Shown here piece by piece: positions 4,851 to 29,885 of a DNA stretch of 64,000 nucleotides. A program made the position numbers and the translations under genes. The stretch spans positions 1 through 64,000 of the forward strand of contig JACMOZ010000178.1 in NCBI GenBank assembly GCA_014377785.1, written 5' to 3'. Numbering within the stretch: position 1 is the stretch's first letter; the number at the start of each line of letters is the position of its first letter. The notes under the pieces were generated by a model that saw nothing but the letters and a program-made list of their open reading frames with translations, did not search any database and was not told where the DNA came from. The DNA comes from Aeromicrobium sp. (lineage in GTDB: Bacteria > Actinomycetota > Actinomycetes > Propionibacteriales > Nocardioidaceae).

Positions 4851-4869
4851 GACGAGGACTGAATAAACT

Positions 4870-5700
<831 letters not shown>

Positions 5701-12042: not shown

Positions 12043-12482
12043 TGGCGCTCAAACTGCATCACTTGCGTCCCGCACCGGGAGCCAAGACCGCCAAGACCCG
12101 CGTGGGTCGTGGTGAAGCTTCCAAGGGCAAGACCGCTGGTCGCGGTACCAAGGGCACCAAGGCCCGTTACCAGGTCCCCGTCGGTTTCGAGGGTGGCCAG
12201 GTTCCGATCCACATGCGTCTTCCCAAGCTGAAGGGCTTTAAAAACCCCTTCCGCGAGGAATTCCAGGTCGTCAACCTCGACCGTATCGAAGAGCTCTTCC
12301 CCAAGGGTGGAGCGATTGACATTGCGGCCTTGGTAGACAACGGTGCCGTCCGCAAGGGCCGTCCCGTCAAGGTCCTCGGTCAAGGCGAAATCACCGTTAA
12401 GGTGCAGATCGCGGCGAACAAGTTCTCCGGATCGGCCAAGACCAAAATCGAAGCAGCCGGCGGCAGCATCACCGAGGTTTAG
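12042..12482 (+). CDS. rplO: Large-subunit ribosomal protein uL15
   Basis: This 146-residue protein is L15, a late-assembly 50S protein. The Gly/Lys-rich N-terminal half ([20 protein letters not shown]) and the C-terminal [20 protein letters not shown] are diagnostic. It is the last ribosomal gene before secY; a strong hairpin follows 6 bases after its stop. Confidence 0.98.
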
Positions 12483-22544: not shown

Positions 22545-22573
22545 TTGATGTGGCGCACGTCTCGTTGTACTGT
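22545..22573 (+). promoter_or_regulatory. Promoter of the symporter operon
   Basis: TTGATG (22545-22550), a 17-base spacer and TACTGT (22568-22573) form a good sigma-A promoter. The start of transcription would fall at about 22580, immediately before the ATTGAC-N6-GTCAAT operator, where a bound repressor would block initiation. Confidence 0.5.
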
Positions 22574-22584
22574 GACCTATTGGC

Positions 22585-22602
22585 ATTGACGTCAATGTCA
22601 AT
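22585..22602. promoter_or_regulatory. Candidate TetR operator at the symporter promoter
   Basis: ATTGAC-GTCAAT-GTCAAT: the outer halves (22585-22590 and 22597-22602) form ATTGAC-N6-GTCAAT, and 22584-22597 is also a perfect 14-bp palindrome. The same 18-base pattern occurs at 29206-29223 beside the tetR gene, 6.6 kb away. Confidence 0.55.
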
Positions 22603-22619
22603 ACAAGAAGGAGTCACCC

Positions 22620-22820
22620 ATGCCCCAACAACGAATGCCCCGGTCGGAGGTGGCGATCCTCGTCGGGATCGCTGTCTACGCATTCGTCATATTTCTGCCC
22701 TGGACGCATGACGTCATGGTCGCGAACGTAAGCCTTTTCGCCTGGCTGATGTTTGCGCTGATGGTCCTTGCGCCCGCAACCGGTCTGGTCGTCGCGCTCA
22801 AGTCAGATGTGGAGGACTGA
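22620..22820 (+). CDS. Small two-TM protein paired with sodium:solute symporter
   Basis: This 66-residue protein has two hydrophobic segments (about 12-29 and 38-58) and an acidic C terminus. It starts with ATG after AGAAGGAG and ends 3 bases before the symporter gene. Small membrane proteins of this kind (for example the DUF3311 family) are often encoded directly upstream of solute:sodium symporters and are thought to be accessory subunits. The family is inferred from size and context rather than a clear motif. Confidence 0.7.
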   Translation: MPQQRMPRSEVAILVGIAVYAFVIFLPWTHDVMVANVSLFAWLMFALMVLAPATGLVVALKSDVED

Positions 22821-22823
22821 CCC

Positions 22824-24245
22824 ATGGCAATGGCAATTGTCCTTCTCTACTTCGCCGTCCTCGTCGTGGTCGGCATCATGGCCAGACGCAGAGTCAAGGG
22901 GTCGACCGACGAGTTCTTCGTCGCCGGACGTACCCTCGGTACGTTTGCCAACTCCTGGGCGTTCCTCGCGTCGCTGGCCAGCGGCGGCTCGGTCCTCGCC
23001 ACGGTGGGAACGGGACTGGCGCTCGGGTGGCCCTACGGTTCGGCGCTCCTCGCCGGCGCGCCGGTCGGTTTCGTTGTCGCTTCGATCTTCGTCGCACGTC
23101 CGCTTCGCCAACTGGGTCGCTACACCGTGACCGATTATTTCCGCGGACGGTTCGACAGCCGTCTGATGGCCTGGGCGGTGCCGGCTCTCATCGTCATCGC
23201 CAGCTCTGCCTACATCGTTGCCCAGCTCAAGGGCGCGAGCATCGTGGCGTCCTATGTCCTCGACGTGGACTACAAGGTGGGCTTGTGGGGAGCCGGCATC
23301 GTTTTCGTCACCTATGTGGCGATCGGCGGCTTCCTCTCTGTGACATGGAATGACATCTTCCAGGGCATCCTTATGTTCGCCGCCGTCGTGGGCTTCGCGG
23401 TCGCTGCATTCTCTGCACTCGATGGTTATGGCACGGCGTTTTCCCAGGCGACTGACAACTTTCCGGCGTTGGGAACCTTCTCGGCTTTGCCCATCACGTC
23501 CTACATCGGCGGATTCGTCACATGGGTTGCCGCGATATCAGTTCTGCCCCACGTCATCATGCGGGTCTACTCGGCTCGCAGCGTTCGCTCGGCCCGTATC
23601 TCGCTCAACGTGGCGATGCTGATCTTCGCTGCGATGATGCTGTTGATCGCTTTCGTACTCACCCCGGCGGCGGCAGTTCTACTGACCGACGTCGATCTGA
23701 CGAACCCCGACGCCATCTTCTTCGCGCTGGCCGAAACCGTCCTGAACCCGTTGATGCAGGGTGTCGTCGCGGCCGCGGTTCTTGCGGCGATCATGTCGAC
23801 GACGGCGGGTCTTCTCATGGCCTGCAACTCAGCGATCGCGCATGACATCTACTCCACTTTGCTGCGTCCGGATGCGTCGGAGAAGCAGGTCGTTCGGGTG
23901 GCAGGCATCGCGACGTGGGTGATCGGTCTGGTTTGTACGACTCTTGCCATGAACCCGCCAGAACTCCTCATCGTTCTGTACACCGCTGCAGTGGGCCTGC
24001 TCGCCGCCTCATGCTTCGCACCCATGGTGCTCGGCATCTGGTGGCCACGAACGACGTCGGCGGGAGCCAGCAGCGGGCTGGTCGCGGGTGCCGGGTCCTT
24101 CGCGATTGGGTTTCAGATGTTCGACATGCCGGTGTCGTCCGAGGTGCTGGTCGGCCTGCCGGTGTCGATTCTCACCACCGTGATCGTCAGCCTGCTCACG
24201 CAGGTGGAGACGCATCAGGAGTCCGTGCGAAGCGCGGCTTCCTGA
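22824..24245 (+). CDS. Sodium:solute symporter family transporter
   Basis: This 473-residue protein has about 13 membrane segments. It begins in the first helix and keeps the SSF landmarks STDEFFVAGRTLG after TM1, the SLASGGSVLATVGTG helix and the AAAVLAAIMSTTAGLLMACNS segment forming the sodium site region. SSF proteins import carboxylates, amino acids or vitamins with Na+ (PutP, ActP, PanF). The linked acyl-CoA ligase and carboxylase suggest a carboxylic acid as substrate, by inference. It is the second gene of a two-gene operon that carries a TetR-type operator. Confidence 0.9.
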   Translation: MAMAIVLLYFAVLVVVGIMARRRVKGSTDEFFVAGRTLGTFANSWAFLASLASGGSVLATVGTGLALGWPYGSALLAGAPVGFVVASIFVARPLRQLGRYTVTDYFRGRFDSRLMAWAVPALIVIASSAYIVAQLKGASIVASYVLDVDYKVGLWGAGIVFVTYVAIGGFLSVTWNDIFQGILMFAAVVGFAVAAFSALDGYGTAFSQATDNFPALGTFSALPITSYIGGFVTWVAAISVLPHVIMRVYSARSVRSARISLNVAMLIFAAMMLLIAFVLTPAAAVLLTDVDLTNPDAIFFALAETVLNPLMQGVVAAAVLAAIMSTTAGLLMACNSAIAHDIYSTLLRPDASEKQVVRVAGIATWVIGLVCTTLAMNPPELLIVLYTAAVGLLAASCFAPMVLGIWWPRTTSAGASSGLVAGAGSFAIGFQMFDMPVSSEVLVGLPVSILTTVIVSLLTQVETHQESVRSAAS

Positions 24246-24254
24246 CCAACCCCA

Positions 24255-24288
24255 AAGGGCCCCCGACCAGGCATGGTCGGGGGCCCTT
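24255..24288. terminator. Bidirectional terminator between symporter and acyl-CoA ligase
   Basis: Arms 24255-24269 and 24274-24288 form a perfect 15-bp G+C-rich stem around GGCA. It sits 9 bases after the symporter stop and 12 bases before the end of the convergent ligase gene, so it probably serves both. Confidence 0.8.
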
Positions 24289-24300
24289 CGCTCCTGCTGA

Positions 24301-25935
24301 CTACCGTCCGGCCGCAAGGTCGTTGGCGGCCGACGCCAGCTCATGCTTGCGAACCTTGCCGGTGTCGGTCATCGGAAATGCGTCGACGACCGAGACCCGG
24401 GGGACCTTGTAGATCGCCATGTTGTCTCGCGCCCACGCCTCGAGCTCAGCGGACTCGAGATCGCCGTTGTTCTTGGCGATAACGAAGGCGACAGGCATCT
24501 GGCCACGTTCGGCGTCATCGGCGGGAACGACGGCAACGGAACTGACCTTAGGGTGCTGGCTCAGCAGCATCTCGATCTCGGCTGGGAACACGCTCATGCC
24601 CTTCACCTTGATCATCTCTTTCTCCCGGCCCAAGTAGTGCAGACAGCCCAGTTCGTCGATTCGGCCGTTGTCACCGGTGTGGATCCAACCGTCACGCAGT
24701 TGCGCATCGGTCGCGCTCTGATTGCGCCAGTAGCCGGTGGTCACCGAAGGACTCCTGACGATGATCTCGCCAACCTCGCCGAGCGGCAGAGGCTCACCGG
24801 ACTCGAACGACACGACCGCGACATCGGTCCCGGGAACAGGTAGCCCGCAGAAGACTGGTTCGGCCAGGAGGTCGTGATCTCCCTGTGCGAAGCCGTAGGG
24901 CACGCAATCCATGGTGTGCGTCTCGGTCATGCCGTAGGCCGACTCGCGCAACTGTGGGCCGGGCGCGACTTCGGACCACTGGCGGCGAACCTCCGGGGTC
25001 ATCTTGCGGACGAACGACACGGCCTGAGGATCGGTGAGCGAACTCAAGTCACGCGATGCCACGCCGGGCAGCTCCATCAATTCGAGGTAGTTCTCGACCG
25101 TGCCGACCATCAACGTGACTCGGTGTTGCTCGATCGCATCGATGACGAGCGGGGCGTTCCAGCGCGGCATCAGGACGGTGGTGCCGCCGAGGACCAGCGG
25201 GAACAGGATGCCCAAGTCCTCGCCGGCGATCCAGAAGATTGGCAGGTAGCACAGACCCACGAAGTGTCCATCCGGTTCGATCGCGCTGGCTCCCGTCGAG
25301 CTCGCCACGGTGTAGAGCATGTGCCGTTGAGAGTGACAGCAGCCCTTCGGCAGTCCGGTCGTGCCGCCGGTGTAGTTGAGCGCAGCAAGGGCATCGAGGT
25401 CGTCGGCGCAGTCGACGTACGCGTCATGGGACAGCGCTGTTGCCCATTCATCGGAGCCGATGATCAACCGGGCAACAGGGCCGAAGTGATCGGCGGCATT
25501 GTCGAGGATCCCAGCCAGCGAATCCGAGGTGATGATGAGGCTGGGTTCGGCATCGGTGATCTCATGGGCCAGCTCCGCGGCCTGGAACATCGGATTGACC
25601 GGCACATGGACGGCCCCGACCCGCAGGATCGCGAGGAAGGCGACGACGAACTCGATGGAGTTCGACAGGTGGACGGCAACGCGGTCGCCGGATTCCACGC
25701 CTTGGGCGGAGAGCCAACCGGCGAGGCGTCGATGTTGCTGATCCAGCTCGGCGTACGTGACCGTCCGGTCCTCGAAGACGATCGCCTTTCGCTCGGGGTT
25801 GGTGGCGGCCCAGTGCTCCACGTGGCGCGGAATCGTGATCTCGCCGAGCGGGTAGGTGACCTCCGAAGGTGTGCCGGCAGGTCGTGAACGGTTCTGCAGC
25901 TCTCGAAGCTGGTCGGCGTACGTCGTCAAGTCCAT
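24301..25935 (-). CDS. Acyl-CoA synthetase (AMP-binding enzyme family)
   Basis: This 544-residue ANL enzyme activates a carboxylic acid with ATP and CoA. The phosphate-binding loop YTGGTTGLPKG is at residues 188-198. YGMTETHTMD, the WIHTGDNG motif and the C-terminal lysine motif TGKVRKHEL follow in order. The substrate cannot be read; the pocket resembles the CaiC/crotonobetaine or short/medium-chain acyl-CoA ligase type. The ATG has AAGGAGAATTC as ribosome-binding site. It lies 37 bases downstream of the carboxylase on the same strand, so both are likely in one operon: the ligase would supply the acyl-CoA and the carboxylase modify it. Confidence 0.9.
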   Translation of the reverse strand: MDLTTYADQLRELQNRSRPAGTPSEVTYPLGEITIPRHVEHWAATNPERKAIVFEDRTVTYAELDQQHRRLAGWLSAQGVESGDRVAVHLSNSIEFVVAFLAILRVGAVHVPVNPMFQAAELAHEITDAEPSLIITSDSLAGILDNAADHFGPVARLIIGSDEWATALSHDAYVDCADDLDALAALNYTGGTTGLPKGCCHSQRHMLYTVASSTGASAIEPDGHFVGLCYLPIFWIAGEDLGILFPLVLGGTTVLMPRWNAPLVIDAIEQHRVTLMVGTVENYLELMELPGVASRDLSSLTDPQAVSFVRKMTPEVRRQWSEVAPGPQLRESAYGMTETHTMDCVPYGFAQGDHDLLAEPVFCGLPVPGTDVAVVSFESGEPLPLGEVGEIIVRSPSVTTGYWRNQSATDAQLRDGWIHTGDNGRIDELGCLHYLGREKEMIKVKGMSVFPAEIEMLLSQHPKVSSVAVVPADDAERGQMPVAFVIAKNNGDLESAELEAWARDNMAIYKVPRVSVVDAFPMTDTGKVRKHELASAANDLAAGR

Positions 25936-25972
25936 GAATTCTCCTTGATGCAGTTCGGCTGGTGGGTCGGAC

Positions 25973-28900
25973 TCACCAGGTGTCTATGTAGTTGTGAACC
26001 GGTGCCTCGGGAGTACGGGGGCTGCTCATCGTGGTCGTGATCCAGGTGCGGGTCTCGGCGGGGTCGATGACGTCGTCGAGCTCGAATGTCATGGCGGCGT
26101 TGATGGCCTTGCCGGACTCGTAGTGCTGCGCAACGAGTTCGTTGAAGCGCATCGTACGTTCGGCGTCGTCGGCAATCGCTGCAAGCTCCTTGGCATAGCC
26201 AAGTGTCACGGCGCCCTCGAGACCCATCGGTCCGATCTCGCCGGTCGGCCACGCAATCGTCGCGATGGTCTCCCGAAAGCCACCGGCCGCCATGGCTTGT
26301 GCCCCGAGTCCGTAGCCCTTGCGCAGCACGACGGTGATCATCGGGACGGAGAGGTGGGCGCCGATCACGAAGAGTCGGCTGAAGTGACGGACTGTCGCCG
26401 ACTTCTCGGCATCGGGCCCGACCATGAATCCCGGCGTGTCGCACAAGGAAATGACAGGGAGGCCATGGGCGTTGCACAGCTGGAGGAAGCGAGCCATCTT
26501 GTCGGCCGCATCGGTATCGATCGCCCCGCCGAGGTGTGCCGGGTTGTTCGCCACGACGCCCATGGCGCGCCCTTCGATCCTGACCAGCGCCGTGATCGCG
26601 CCGGCGGCGAAGTCCTTGCGAAGCTCCATCACGGAGTTATCATCTGCGAGCTTTTCGATGACGACTCGGATGTCATAGACCCGCAATCGGTTCTCGGGAA
26701 TGACGTGGCGAAGATGGCGCTGATCATCGGCCGTCCAGGTCGGCTGAGTGCCCTGGAAGTACGAGAGGTACTTCTTGGCGGCTTGTACGGCCTCCTCATC
26801 GGATTCCACGAGAATGTCCACGACGCCATTGGGCGCCTGCACCGACATCGGGCCAACCTCTTCGGGGGTGTAGGAGCCAAGCCCGCCGCCTTCGATCATG
26901 GCCGGGCCCGCCATTCCCAAGGTCGAATCACGGGTTCCGATGATGACGTCACAGCAACCGAGGAGGGCGGCATTGCCGGCGAAACACCGGCCGGTCAGGA
27001 CGCCGACGGTCGGGACGAGGCCGCTCAGAGCACCCATGATGCCGAAGGTGGGCGTGTCCAGGGCGGCGGCAATCAGATCGGAGGTGTCGCTGTCGCCGGG
27101 GCGCCCTCCGCCGCCTTCGGCAAAGAACAAGACGGGGACCTTCTTCTTCGCGGCGAGGCGCAGCATGCGATCGGTCTTCTTGTGATTGAAGTAGCCCTGT
27201 GTTCCTGCCAACACCATGTAGTCGTAGGCAAGGACGACGCACTCGCTCTGATCAGGGTGATCGTCGCCGTTGACGCGTGCGAGTCCGGTGACGATTCCGT
27301 CGGCAGGCGTGTTCGCCAGGAGATCGTCGATGCCACGCCTGCTGCGTTGAGCCGCGACTGGCAGGGCCCCATACTCGATGAAGGAGCCGGCATCGCACAG
27401 ATCGTCGAGATTCTCTCGCGCAGTTCGATGACCCGAGGCGTGGCGCTTCGCGACCGCATGGGGCCGCGCCTTGTCGAGGGTCTTGTCATGGCGATCGATC
27501 ATGTCGGCGAGATCGGCACGCATGTGGTCGAGGTCGGTGCTCTCGACGATCTCGGCGGACGCATCTTCTCCGGTCGGGCTCATGTGGATCAGGGTCTGGC
27601 CCTCGCCGACGGTGTCGCCGAGGGCGACGTCGACCCGGTCGACGACGCCGGGCACGCGCGCGGAAATCGTGTGCTCCATCTTCATCGCCTCGATCACGAG
27701 GAGGGTCGATCGTGCCGGCACGGTGTCACCGGCAGCGCACTCGACGCTGACCACGGTTCCGGCGAGTGGTGAGGAGAGGACCTCCGACATCTCGGTGCGG
27801 GGGTTGTCGACCGTCCCGATGAGGGCGTCGAGATTGTCGGTCAGGAAGGTTGTCGTGACCTCGCCGGATATGAATTCGGGTCGTGCCAGCACGCTGCGGA
27901 CGAGGTCGACCGACGTCTTCACTCCCTCGATCTCGAAGCCGGCCAATGCGGTATCGGCTGCCTGGGCTGCCTCTGCGAAGGTCGGGGCCGTGGTGATGAC
28001 CTTGGCCAGCAGGGAGTCGAAGCTCCCATCGACGACCATGCCGGTGCGGCCGTGGGTTTCCACACGAACGCCAGGGCCCGTGGGTGCGGCAAAGGCCGTC
28101 AGGGATCCCGACGTCGAATAGGCGATCCCCTCGGGGCCGACCGTTTCGGTATTGACCCGGCACTGGATCGAGAACGAATCGGGCGTTCCGATGGTTGCTT
28201 GGGTGAGGCCGAGATCGTCGAAGGTGGCTCCGGCGGCGATCTCGAGCTGCCGACTGGCGAGGTCGATGCCGAAGGTCTGCTCCGTCACAGTGTGCTCGAC
28301 CTGGATACGCGGGTTGACCTCGATGAAGACGTAGTCGAGCTCGGGTCGGGTCAGACTATCGGCGTTGACGAGGAACTCAACGGTCGCCAGTCCGGAATAG
28401 CCGATGGACTGCGTGAGCCGCACGGCAGACTCGGTCAGGACCTGGCGCTGGGCATCGTCGAGCACGGGGCTGGGCGCCCATTCGATCAGCTTCTGGTTCT
28501 GTCGCTGGATGCTGCACTCGCGCTCGCCGACGTGGACGACTTGCCCCGTGCCGTCGCCGATGATTTGCACTTCGACGTGCTTTGCCCGGGGCATCAACGC
28601 CTCAAGAAACACCTCATCGCGGCCGAAGGCTCGCAACGCCTCGGAACGGCAACGCTGGTAGGCATTGTCGAGTTCGAGCGGATCGGTCACCGCCCGCATG
28701 CCCCGGCCACCGCCGCCGGACACAGCCTTGACCATGACCCCGGACCGGCTGCGGGCGAAGAACTCACGTGCTGCTTCGAGCGAGGTCGGTGCGATGGTCG
28801 CGTCCAGGACCGGGACGCCGCACTCGCGTGCCCAGGTATGGGCCCGGTACTTGTCGCCGAAGAGCTCGAGAACCGACGGCGAAGGCCCCACGAAGATGAG

Positions 28901-29188
28901 CCCGGCATCGGCGCAGGCCTGGGCGAAATCAGGGTTCTCGCTGAGGAATCCATATCCGGGATGCACGAGATCGCTGGCCGATTCGCGTGCGATCCGGATC
29001 ATGGCCTCGATGTCGAGATAGCCCTGAACACCCGAGCCCGGGAGGAGAAAGTCTTCATCGCAGGCCTCGATGTGCGCCGAGCCGGCATCCTGCTCGACGT
29101 AGACCGCAACCGTCTCCCAGCCCAGGGAGGCTGCGGCGCGATGGACGCGCAGGGCGATTTCTCCGCGGTTGGCGATGAGCAGCTTCAT
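25973..29188 (-). CDS. Single-chain acyl-CoA carboxylase: biotin carboxylase, biotin carrier and carboxyltransferase fused
   Basis: This 1071-residue protein contains a whole biotin-dependent carboxylase in one chain. Residues 1-445 are biotin carboxylase (LLIANRGEIALR, the ATP-grasp loop KAVSGGGGRGMR, FIEVNPRIQVEHTVTEQ). Residues about 465-540 are the biotin carrier with EAMKM, biotin on Lys503. Residues about 560-1071 are a carboxyltransferase with both N and C halves (GYFNHKKTDRM, FAEGGGGRPGD, then VVANNPAHLGGAID and CDTPGFMVGPDAE). The layout matches long-chain or broad acyl-CoA carboxylases of the LCC type rather than split AccA/AccD systems. Promoter TTGACA-N16-TACGCT and a TetR-type operator lie just upstream; GGAGG precedes the ATG. 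Carboxylation of a CoA thioester made by the adjacent ligase is inferred. Confidence 0.93.
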   Translation of the reverse strand: MKLLIANRGEIALRVHRAAASLGWETVAVYVEQDAGSAHIEACDEDFLLPGSGVQGYLDIEAMIRIARESASDLVHPGYGFLSENPDFAQACADAGLIFVGPSPSVLELFGDKYRAHTWARECGVPVLDATIAPTSLEAAREFFARSRSGVMVKAVSGGGGRGMRAVTDPLELDNAYQRCRSEALRAFGRDEVFLEALMPRAKHVEVQIIGDGTGQVVHVGERECSIQRQNQKLIEWAPSPVLDDAQRQVLTESAVRLTQSIGYSGLATVEFLVNADSLTRPELDYVFIEVNPRIQVEHTVTEQTFGIDLASRQLEIAAGATFDDLGLTQATIGTPDSFSIQCRVNTETVGPEGIAYSTSGSLTAFAAPTGPGVRVETHGRTGMVVDGSFDSLLAKVITTAPTFAEAAQAADTALAGFEIEGVKTSVDLVRSVLARPEFISGEVTTTFLTDNLDALIGTVDNPRTEMSEVLSSPLAGTVVSVECAAGDTVPARSTLLVIEAMKMEHTISARVPGVVDRVDVALGDTVGEGQTLIHMSPTGEDASAEIVESTDLDHMRADLADMIDRHDKTLDKARPHAVAKRHASGHRTARENLDDLCDAGSFIEYGALPVAAQRSRRGIDDLLANTPADGIVTGLARVNGDDHPDQSECVVLAYDYMVLAGTQGYFNHKKTDRMLRLAAKKKVPVLFFAEGGGGRPGDSDTSDLIAAALDTPTFGIMGALSGLVPTVGVLTGRCFAGNAALLGCCDVIIGTRDSTLGMAGPAMIEGGGLGSYTPEEVGPMSVQAPNGVVDILVESDEEAVQAAKKYLSYFQGTQPTWTADDQRHLRHVIPENRLRVYDIRVVIEKLADDNSVMELRKDFAAGAITALVRIEGRAMGVVANNPAHLGGAIDTDAADKMARFLQLCNAHGLPVISLCDTPGFMVGPDAEKSATVRHFSRLFVIGAHLSVPMITVVLRKGYGLGAQAMAAGGFRETIATIAWPTGEIGPMGLEGAVTLGYAKELAAIADDAERTMRFNELVAQHYESGKAINAAMTFELDDVIDPAETRTWITTTMSSPRTPEAPVHNYIDTW

Positions 29189-29205
29189 GAGGCCTCCAGG
29201 CGGGC

Positions 29206-29223
29206 ATTGACAGTGGCGTCAAT
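29206..29223. promoter_or_regulatory. Candidate TetR operator, carboxylase-proximal
   Basis: ATTGAC-AGTGGC-GTCAAT is an inverted repeat with 6-bp arms and 6-base spacer, directly abutting the -10 (29229-29224) of the carboxylase promoter on its downstream side. It has the same arm sequence and spacing as the site at 22585-22602. Confidence 0.55.
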
Positions 29224-29251
29224 AGCGTACACGCGTTGGCACGAGTGTCAA
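29224..29251 (-). promoter_or_regulatory. Promoter of the carboxylase-ligase operon
   Basis: Reading the minus strand, TTGACA (29251-29246), 16 bases, then TACGCT (29229-29224). The -35 lies inside the degenerate operator 29235-29252 and the -10 touches the perfect operator 29206-29223, so a repressor would cover the whole promoter. Confidence 0.5.
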
Positions 29252-29252
29252 T
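29235..29252. promoter_or_regulatory. Degenerate TetR operator, tetR-proximal
   Basis: GTTGGC-ACGAGT-GTCAAT matches the ATTGAC-N6-GTCAAT pattern in 10 of 12 arm positions. It lies 29 bases from the perfect site (start to start) and 3 bases upstream of the -10 (TATGCT, 29256-29261) of the tetR gene, which fits autoregulation. Confidence 0.4.
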
Positions 29253-29267
29253 CACTATGCTGGGGGC

Positions 29268-29885
29268 ATGGAGACCAAGGGATGGGCCGTACGCGAGACC
29301 GTCGATCGCGCCGACACGGAGCGTCGCCGGCAATTGCTCGTCGCCGCCAGAACAGTGTTCGAGCGCAAGGGCTTCGGTACCGCAACGATCAGCGAAATTA
29401 CGCGCGAGGCAGACGTCAGTCGGGCCACCTTCTACGTCTATTTCGCTTCGAAGACCCAGGTGTTCGCCGTCTTGGCCGAACAGGTGCGCGTCGACTATCT
29501 CCGGGCCCAGGAGCTCGGCGATATCGATGATGATGCCGTCTTGGAGGTGCTGCGGGCAACGATCGGCGCGACCTTGGACGTGACGGTCAACAACCTTGCC
29601 CTCATGACGGTCCTCGACCATCAGGCGATCGCCGACAAGGACATCAATCAGCTGTGGCGAGGCATACGTCGCCAGACCGTCCTGAGAACCGCGCGTTACC
29701 TCGAGCGCTGTGCCGATCGAGGACTTGCCAGCCTGGATGCGTCGGCCGAGACGGTCGCCATGATGGGTGCCGGGATGAACGACAGGTTCGCCCCTCATGT
29801 CGCTGAGGGTGTCGTTGAGCGTGACTATGCCGTCGAGCAGATGCTCAAGGTCTTTCTCCAGGTTATTGGGCGGACCGCCGACTGA
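29268..29885 (+). CDS. TetR/AcrR family transcriptional regulator
   Basis: This 205-residue protein has an N-terminal TetR helix-turn-helix (residues about 20-66: RQLLVAARTVFERKGFG, ISEITREADVSRATFYVYF) and an all-helical ligand-binding domain. It is divergent from the carboxylase-ligase operon. Three copies of ATTGAC-N6-GTCAAT (one degenerate) lie at its own, the carboxylase and the symporter promoters, making it the probable local repressor, with an acyl-CoA or the imported acid as likely effector. TATGCT lies 6 bases before the ATG, so its own mRNA may be leaderless. Confidence 0.92.
   Translation: METKGWAVRETVDRADTERRRQLLVAARTVFERKGFGTATISEITREADVSRATFYVYFASKTQVFAVLAEQVRVDYLRAQELGDIDDDAVLEVLRATIGATLDVTVNNLALMTVLDHQAIADKDINQLWRGIRRQTVLRTARYLERCADRGLASLDASAETVAMMGAGMNDRFAPHVAEGVVERDYAVEQMLKVFLQVIGRTAD

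Follow-up and report, generated by a model that had tools for sequence, protein, structure and literature searches.

The window analysed here is a 64,000-nucleotide stretch of an Aeromicrobium sp. genome (assembly GCA_014377785.1, contig JACMOZ010000178.1), and our subject is a locus within it where a TetR-family regulator gene, a single-chain acyl-CoA carboxylase gene, an acyl-CoA ligase gene and a symporter gene are accompanied by copies of one palindromic motif, ATTGAC-N6-GTCAAT. A small open reading frame (ORF) and the symporter gene point forward, the ligase and carboxylase genes lie on the reverse strand, and tetR points forward again, divergently from the carboxylase. The features of the locus are as follows.

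22545-22573, forward strand: putative symporter-operon promoter, TTGATG (22545)-N17-TACTGT (22568-22573), read from the sequence; the same order of -35, -10 and operator is found in two ortholog loci (L039, L041)
22579-22602, forward strand: nested symporter operator, 24 bp, ATTGGC-ATTGAC-GTCAAT-GTCAAT, recognised by sequence and by weight-matrix scores of 26.3 and 31.9 bits
22620-22820, forward strand: small ORF of 66 amino acids, resembling a membrane protein, first gene of the symporter operon; the symporter gene starts 3 bp later
22824-24245, forward strand: sodium:solute symporter (SSF), 473 amino acids, Pfam PF00474 at 2e-59
24301-25935, reverse strand: acyl-CoA ligase (AMP-binding), 544 amino acids, Pfam PF00501 at 1e-83 and PF13193, distal gene of the carboxylase operon
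25973-29188, reverse strand: single-chain biotin-dependent acyl-CoA carboxylase of LCC type, 1071 amino acids, with biotin carboxylase (BC), biotin carboxyl carrier (BCCP) and carboxyltransferase (CT) Pfam domains in that order
29206-29223, no strand assigned: operator 2, ATTGACAGTGGCGTCAAT, exact; abuts the -10 of the carboxylase promoter and has a counterpart in the tetR/carboxylase intergenic region of orthologs
29224-29251, reverse strand: putative carboxylase-operon promoter, TTGACA (29251-29246)-N16-TACGCT (29229-29224), read from the sequence
29235-29252, no strand assigned: operator 3, GTTGGCACGAGTGTCAAT, 10 of 12 arm positions, 2 mismatches; covers the carboxylase -35; 20.1 bits
29256-29261, forward strand: putative tetR -10, TATGCT, read from the sequence; a similar TANNNT stands just 5' of the tetR start in relatives
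29268-29885, forward strand: TetR-family regulator, 205 amino acids, Pfam TetR_N, the proposed repressor of all three transcription units

The carboxylase contains its Pfam domains at residues 2-450 (BC), 471-535 (biotinyl) and 582-1053 (CT), and its translation includes the biotin-carrier motif EAMKMEH. It shares the single-chain BC-BCCP-CT arrangement of MapLCC (structure 4rcn), an enzyme of Mycobacterium avium subsp. paratuberculosis, and is collinear with it over residues 2-1052 (1127 bits). The symporter is distantly similar to carriers of sugars, choline and monocarboxylates, and a Pfam search assigned the 66-residue ORF to no family, while counterparts 47-58% identical to it precede the symporter in four ortholog loci (L039, L041, L069, L074). 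The regulator carries an N-terminal helix-turn-helix domain (PF00440, TetR_N, 9e-14, 51.4 bits against a cut-off of 24), and its AlphaFold2 model (pLDDT 89.5) is an all-helical, two-domain protein of ten helices. EthR of M. tuberculosis is the closest solved fold (TM-score 0.71-0.76), and the EthR_C family scored just below its cut-off (7e-6); since identity is about 20%, orthology is not suggested, and the target gene and operator of EthR differ from those of the window's regulator. FadR and FasR, which bind acyl-CoA, were also among the structural matches, a likeness of the modelled fold that fits an acyl-CoA ligand without proving it.

Three sites with common arms and a 6-base spacer had been proposed by a sequence-only reading of this DNA, and all three are present as described: site 1 (ATTGACGTCAATGTCAAT, 22585-22602) and operator 2 match ATTGAC-N6-GTCAAT exactly, and operator 3 matches at 10 of 12 positions. 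Set against its orthologs, the element at the symporter proved larger than had been noted: the exact site (22585-22602) stands, and an 18-bp operator with one mismatch (22579-22596) is interleaved with it at a 6-bp offset, the two forming the 24-bp nested operator.

The promoter geometry claimed for these sites was likewise correct by sequence reading. The symporter operator begins 6 bases past the end of the -10, over the predicted start site, which falls at the operator's left edge. At the divergent promoters, the carboxylase -35 lies inside site 3 and its -10 directly abuts site 2 (29223-29206), and the tetR -10 begins 4 bases past the end of site 3. As this hexamer starts 12 bases ahead of the start codon, tetR is probably leaderless. 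A generic promoter scan listed none of these hexamers, and the promoters therefore rest on reading of the sequence and on comparison with relatives.

This placement bears on how the regulator would act. It may bind the sites mainly as an activator or dual regulator, like mycobacterial FasR, so that its ligand switches genes on rather than relieving repression. FasR is the best of many weak helix-turn-helix matches in NCBIfam, in addition to its place among the structural matches, yet operators lying over a -35, at the edge of a -10 and over a start site fit blocking of RNA polymerase and not its recruitment upstream of the -35. Autoregulated, divergently transcribed TetR genes are also usually those of repressors, which counts further against activation. 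BkaR of mycobacteria is such a repressor (PMC3920632). We consider an activator improbable here.

The motif does not occur at random frequency across the genome, an outcome that would have counted against the sequence-only reading. Dinucleotide shuffles of the window predict 0.01 exact copies where there are 2, and no further exact match exists anywhere in the 5.02-Mb genome, a bin of 519 contigs that is 97.7% complete with 7% contamination. Facing ATTGAC and GTCAAT arms at any spacing from 0 to 30 bases occur at just ten positions genome-wide. A weight matrix built exclusively from sites in other genomes and scanned over the window recovered exactly the four operator positions, scoring 31.9, 26.3, 25.7 and 20.1 bits, with the next best non-site at 9.7, a gap of more than 10 bits. 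We set aside a reverse-pattern control over the genome (175 against 31), since codon usage is not the same for hexamers read in reverse, and used the variable gap, permuted arms and a search with no motif assumed in its place.

Near-consensus matches elsewhere in the same genome fall within coding sequence on three contigs (C57, C152, C237). Another, GTTGACACTAGTGTCACC, stands at the start of a MerR-like gene (C88:9796-9813; L110:2997-3014) and is probably the palindrome of that MerR-like regulator. Contig C517 carries two near-consensus intergenic sites, at 4901-4918 and 5071-5088 (L043, same coordinates), upstream of a gene resembling an ADP-forming acyl-CoA synthetase, together with an enoyl-CoA hydratase and an ATP-binding cassette (ABC) solute-binding protein, and a TetR paralog (31-34% identity) is encoded 4 kb away. 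No other near-consensus match of this genome outside the window has an intergenic position next to acyl-CoA-type genes, and the pair may mark either a distant regulon member or operators of the paralogous TetR.

We searched 150 genomes of the same family and found a clear TetR ortholog (47-58% identity) in 8, all of which have the site near tetR, often as a pair. It lies mostly between tetR and the carboxylase gene; in genomes whose carboxylase is located elsewhere, it stands upstream of a solitary tetR. The exact consensus RTTGACRYNNRYGTCAAY is present in 9/9 genomes with the ortholog, the window's included, against 4/141 others (Fisher p = 9e-12), a test made slightly circular by the use of sites from these same genomes in refining the consensus; the controls with permuted arms or with no motif preset are independent of that refinement. 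None of the 16 consensus matches in these nine is farther than about 8.5 kb from tetR. Two genomes (G056, G106) share the window's layout, with a symporter cassette whose own operator stands just past its -10. One genus, g19, to which Aeromicrobium belongs, has five genomes where the ligase is separated from the carboxylase and has an operator pair to itself, and in one of these the carboxylase has moved as well, carrying a third pair.

A wider comparison gave a similar picture. Scanning a collection of species genomes with the TetR alignment yielded 60 named loci from Aeromicrobium, Rhodococcus, Streptomyces, Amycolatopsis, Nocardiopsis, Pseudonocardia, Brevibacterium and others, 55 of them with a usable TetR position; a few of the genomes overlap the same-family set, and related species among the loci are not independent counts. 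RTTGACN6GTCAAY, with at most one mismatch, occurs within 320 bp upstream of tetR in 41/55 loci, where permuted arms reached at most 1/55. In seven further loci (L049, L075, L081, L086, L089, L090, L095) the motif is found at the promoter of the carboxylase or of the ligase, and the loci that lack it at both places are either short contigs or weak homologs. A search that presupposed no motif placed TTGAC-N6-GTCAA first among all 5-bp arms and gaps of 0-20, with 36/47 upstream regions containing it. We did not count the uniform recognition helix as evidence, because the peptide patterns by which loci were collected included RATFYVYF, from the recognition-helix region, and the uniformity is in part a product of that selection.

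These results bear on whether the pattern could have arisen by chance or from promoter sequence, TTGAC being similar to a -35 hexamer. One arm of site 3 does coincide with the carboxylase -35, but at the symporter and at site 2 the motif follows the -10, in a position where no -35 is expected, and both arms and the 6-bp spacing are conserved where permuted arms of the same composition are found in at most one locus. The rarity in the genome, the permuted-arm result, the association with orthologs and the no-motif search all contradict such an origin, leaving it a negligible probability.

The motif also stays with the genes when they move. Most loci have an ortholog of the ligase. A detached ligase retains its own operator pair in five loci (L035, L036, L037, L038, L040), as does a detached carboxylase in one (L038), and a detached symporter keeps its own site in two (L039, L041). 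Conservation upstream of orthologous genes, the lack of which would have refuted the sequence-only reading by its own terms, extends to dozens of actinobacterial loci, rearranged ones included. The importer itself is less constant. Of 44 other genomes with the TetR ortholog, just 4 gave a close symporter ortholog (64-78% identity), and in each it belongs to the tetR locus: in G056 and G106 it has its own operator, and in two Prauserella genomes it lies immediately downstream of tetR, in the same orientation and with no site to itself. A search of 395 genomes of the class gave no further symporter ortholog at E 1e-100. Aeromicrobium RYN_200 (L051) has one operator (2554-2571) upstream of a PF04199 cyclase gene and a nested one (12337-12360) upstream of an operon for a periplasmic-binding/ABC transporter, and in Rhodococcus opacus the ligase is followed by a cyclase and a major facilitator superfamily (MFS) carrier. 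The uptake system thus seems to change from genus to genus and, as the transporter varies in this way, the common core is activation and carboxylation. In two Aeromicrobium genomes, a near-consensus site (L044:13978-13995, L046:14003-14020) stands upstream of a second carboxyltransferase gene, which is followed by another acyl-CoA ligase.

The nested 24-bp form occurs 16 times in all, 15 of them outside the window in ortholog loci; sites 2 and 3 are not of this form. Its palindromes overlap half a turn apart, which suggests, by analogy, a pair of dimers as in QacR. Dimer pairs on overlapping palindromes are described for QacR, CgmR and others (review PMC6018408). The two palindromes at the symporter, with their 6-bp offset, would suit two dimers on opposite faces of the DNA, a likeness of operator layout. 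Many loci here, by contrast, carry a single 18-bp site, so a dimer pair is not obligatory. The spacing within pairs of separate operators varies: it is exactly 40 bp in three Streptomyces loci (L062:9911-9968, L068:9905-9962, L073:9911-9968), 31-34 bp in Aeromicrobium and 29 bp in the window, and it is not phased to the helix.

The rarity of the sites and their conservation with the genes support the proposal of a small regulon, binding itself being predicted: a TetR-controlled regulon of symporter, acyl-CoA ligase, LCC-type carboxylase and tetR appears strongly supported. We put at roughly 85% the probability that the locus is controlled by an autoregulated TetR repressor, released by a ligand, with the operator RTTGAC-RYNNRY-GTCAAY. 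The regulator (29268-29885) would cover the divergent promoters of the carboxylase and tetR by binding 29206-29223 and 29235-29252, and the start site of the operon of small ORF and symporter by binding the nested 22579-22602. On nested sites, a pair of dimers half a turn apart, like that of QacR, is probable. Without substrate, it would shut off uptake, activation, carboxylation and its own gene. An imported acid would be converted to its CoA ester, and the ester or a product of it would occupy the C-terminal pocket of the regulator, which would then leave the DNA and allow the cassette to be expressed. That the ligand is an acyl-CoA is suggested by the gene content.

Several points weigh against this repressor model or limit it. 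TetR proteins can activate, as FasR does; the symporter family imports many solutes; and with 7% contamination and 519 contigs, the bin may have led us to miss a distant regulon member. In addition, a genome without the ortholog (G099) has GTTGACGTCAATGTCAAT at L114:8784-8801, in the space that separates a different TetR gene (28-34% identical to the window's regulator) from its divergent neighbour; a second near-site is located at 4864. The motif is therefore not unique to this ortholog group, and related TetR subfamilies may share this operator type. The sites could accordingly belong to another regulator, a TetR paralog or a member of another family, with the neighbouring TetR a bystander, and contig C517, which holds both a TetR paralog and two near-consensus sites, adds to that case. 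Against it, presence of the site tracks the TetR ortholog across genomes and rearrangements, and one locus (L064) has the site by tetR where no carboxylase or ligase was found nearby. We judge a bystander even less probable than an activator, and retain the ligand-released repressor as the preferred reading.

The nearest described system by gene content is BkaR (Rv2506/MSMEG_4718) of mycobacteria, an autoregulated TetR repressor divergent from acyl-CoA carboxylase genes, with which it shares a promoter region containing two palindromes of 16-bp core, GTTA(N)T(N4)A(N)TAAC; in M. tuberculosis its intergenic partner is a fadD gene, fadD35 (PMC3920632). The window resembles it in having a TetR gene beside and divergent from a carboxylase, and two palindromes. 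Unlike the window's enzyme, the BkaR carboxylase is of two subunits (AccA1/AccD1) and accompanied by genes of branched-chain catabolism, with no symporter. The operators of the window and its orthologs are RTTGAC-N6-GTCAAY and so not of the BkaR/AccR type. An adjacent carboxylase with putative operators is present, but it is an LCC-type enzyme, and its control by the regulator is predicted. Identity of the window's regulator with BkaR was rejected on the differing operator and the different type of carboxylase. PccD of Mycolicibacterium is a TetR repressor of propionyl-CoA carboxylase genes with a palindromic site called similar to those of BkaR and of AccR of Streptomyces avermitilis (PMC11596240); PccD and AccR are alike in placing acyl-CoA carboxylase genes under TetR control through palindromes, a comparison made at the level of description. 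A literature search, with subscription journals mostly outside its reach, found no paper on a TTGAC-N6-GTCAA operator or on an LCC regulator. The regulon is of a known type, with a sharply defined operator that was not found in the literature searched and may have been described earlier.

We give even chances to a broader proposition, that these loci form an undescribed Actinomycetota-wide regulon, in which an orthologous TetR repressor acting at RTTGAC-RYNNRY-GTCAAY would control an LCC-type carboxylase, a ligase and an exchangeable importer (symporter, ABC or MFS), with nested four-half-site elements loading two dimers. The operator is well enough defined for annotation of the regulon across many actinobacteria and could be used as a component of a biosensor. 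LCC-type carboxylases have a solved structure, and a conserved regulon linking them to a single ligase, a dedicated importer and one repressor that responds to a ligand would make their role testable: an acid or CoA ester found to release the regulator from its 18-bp site should indicate what LCC acts on. If the proposition is true, LCC enzymes would gain a catabolic role tied to a specific imported acid.

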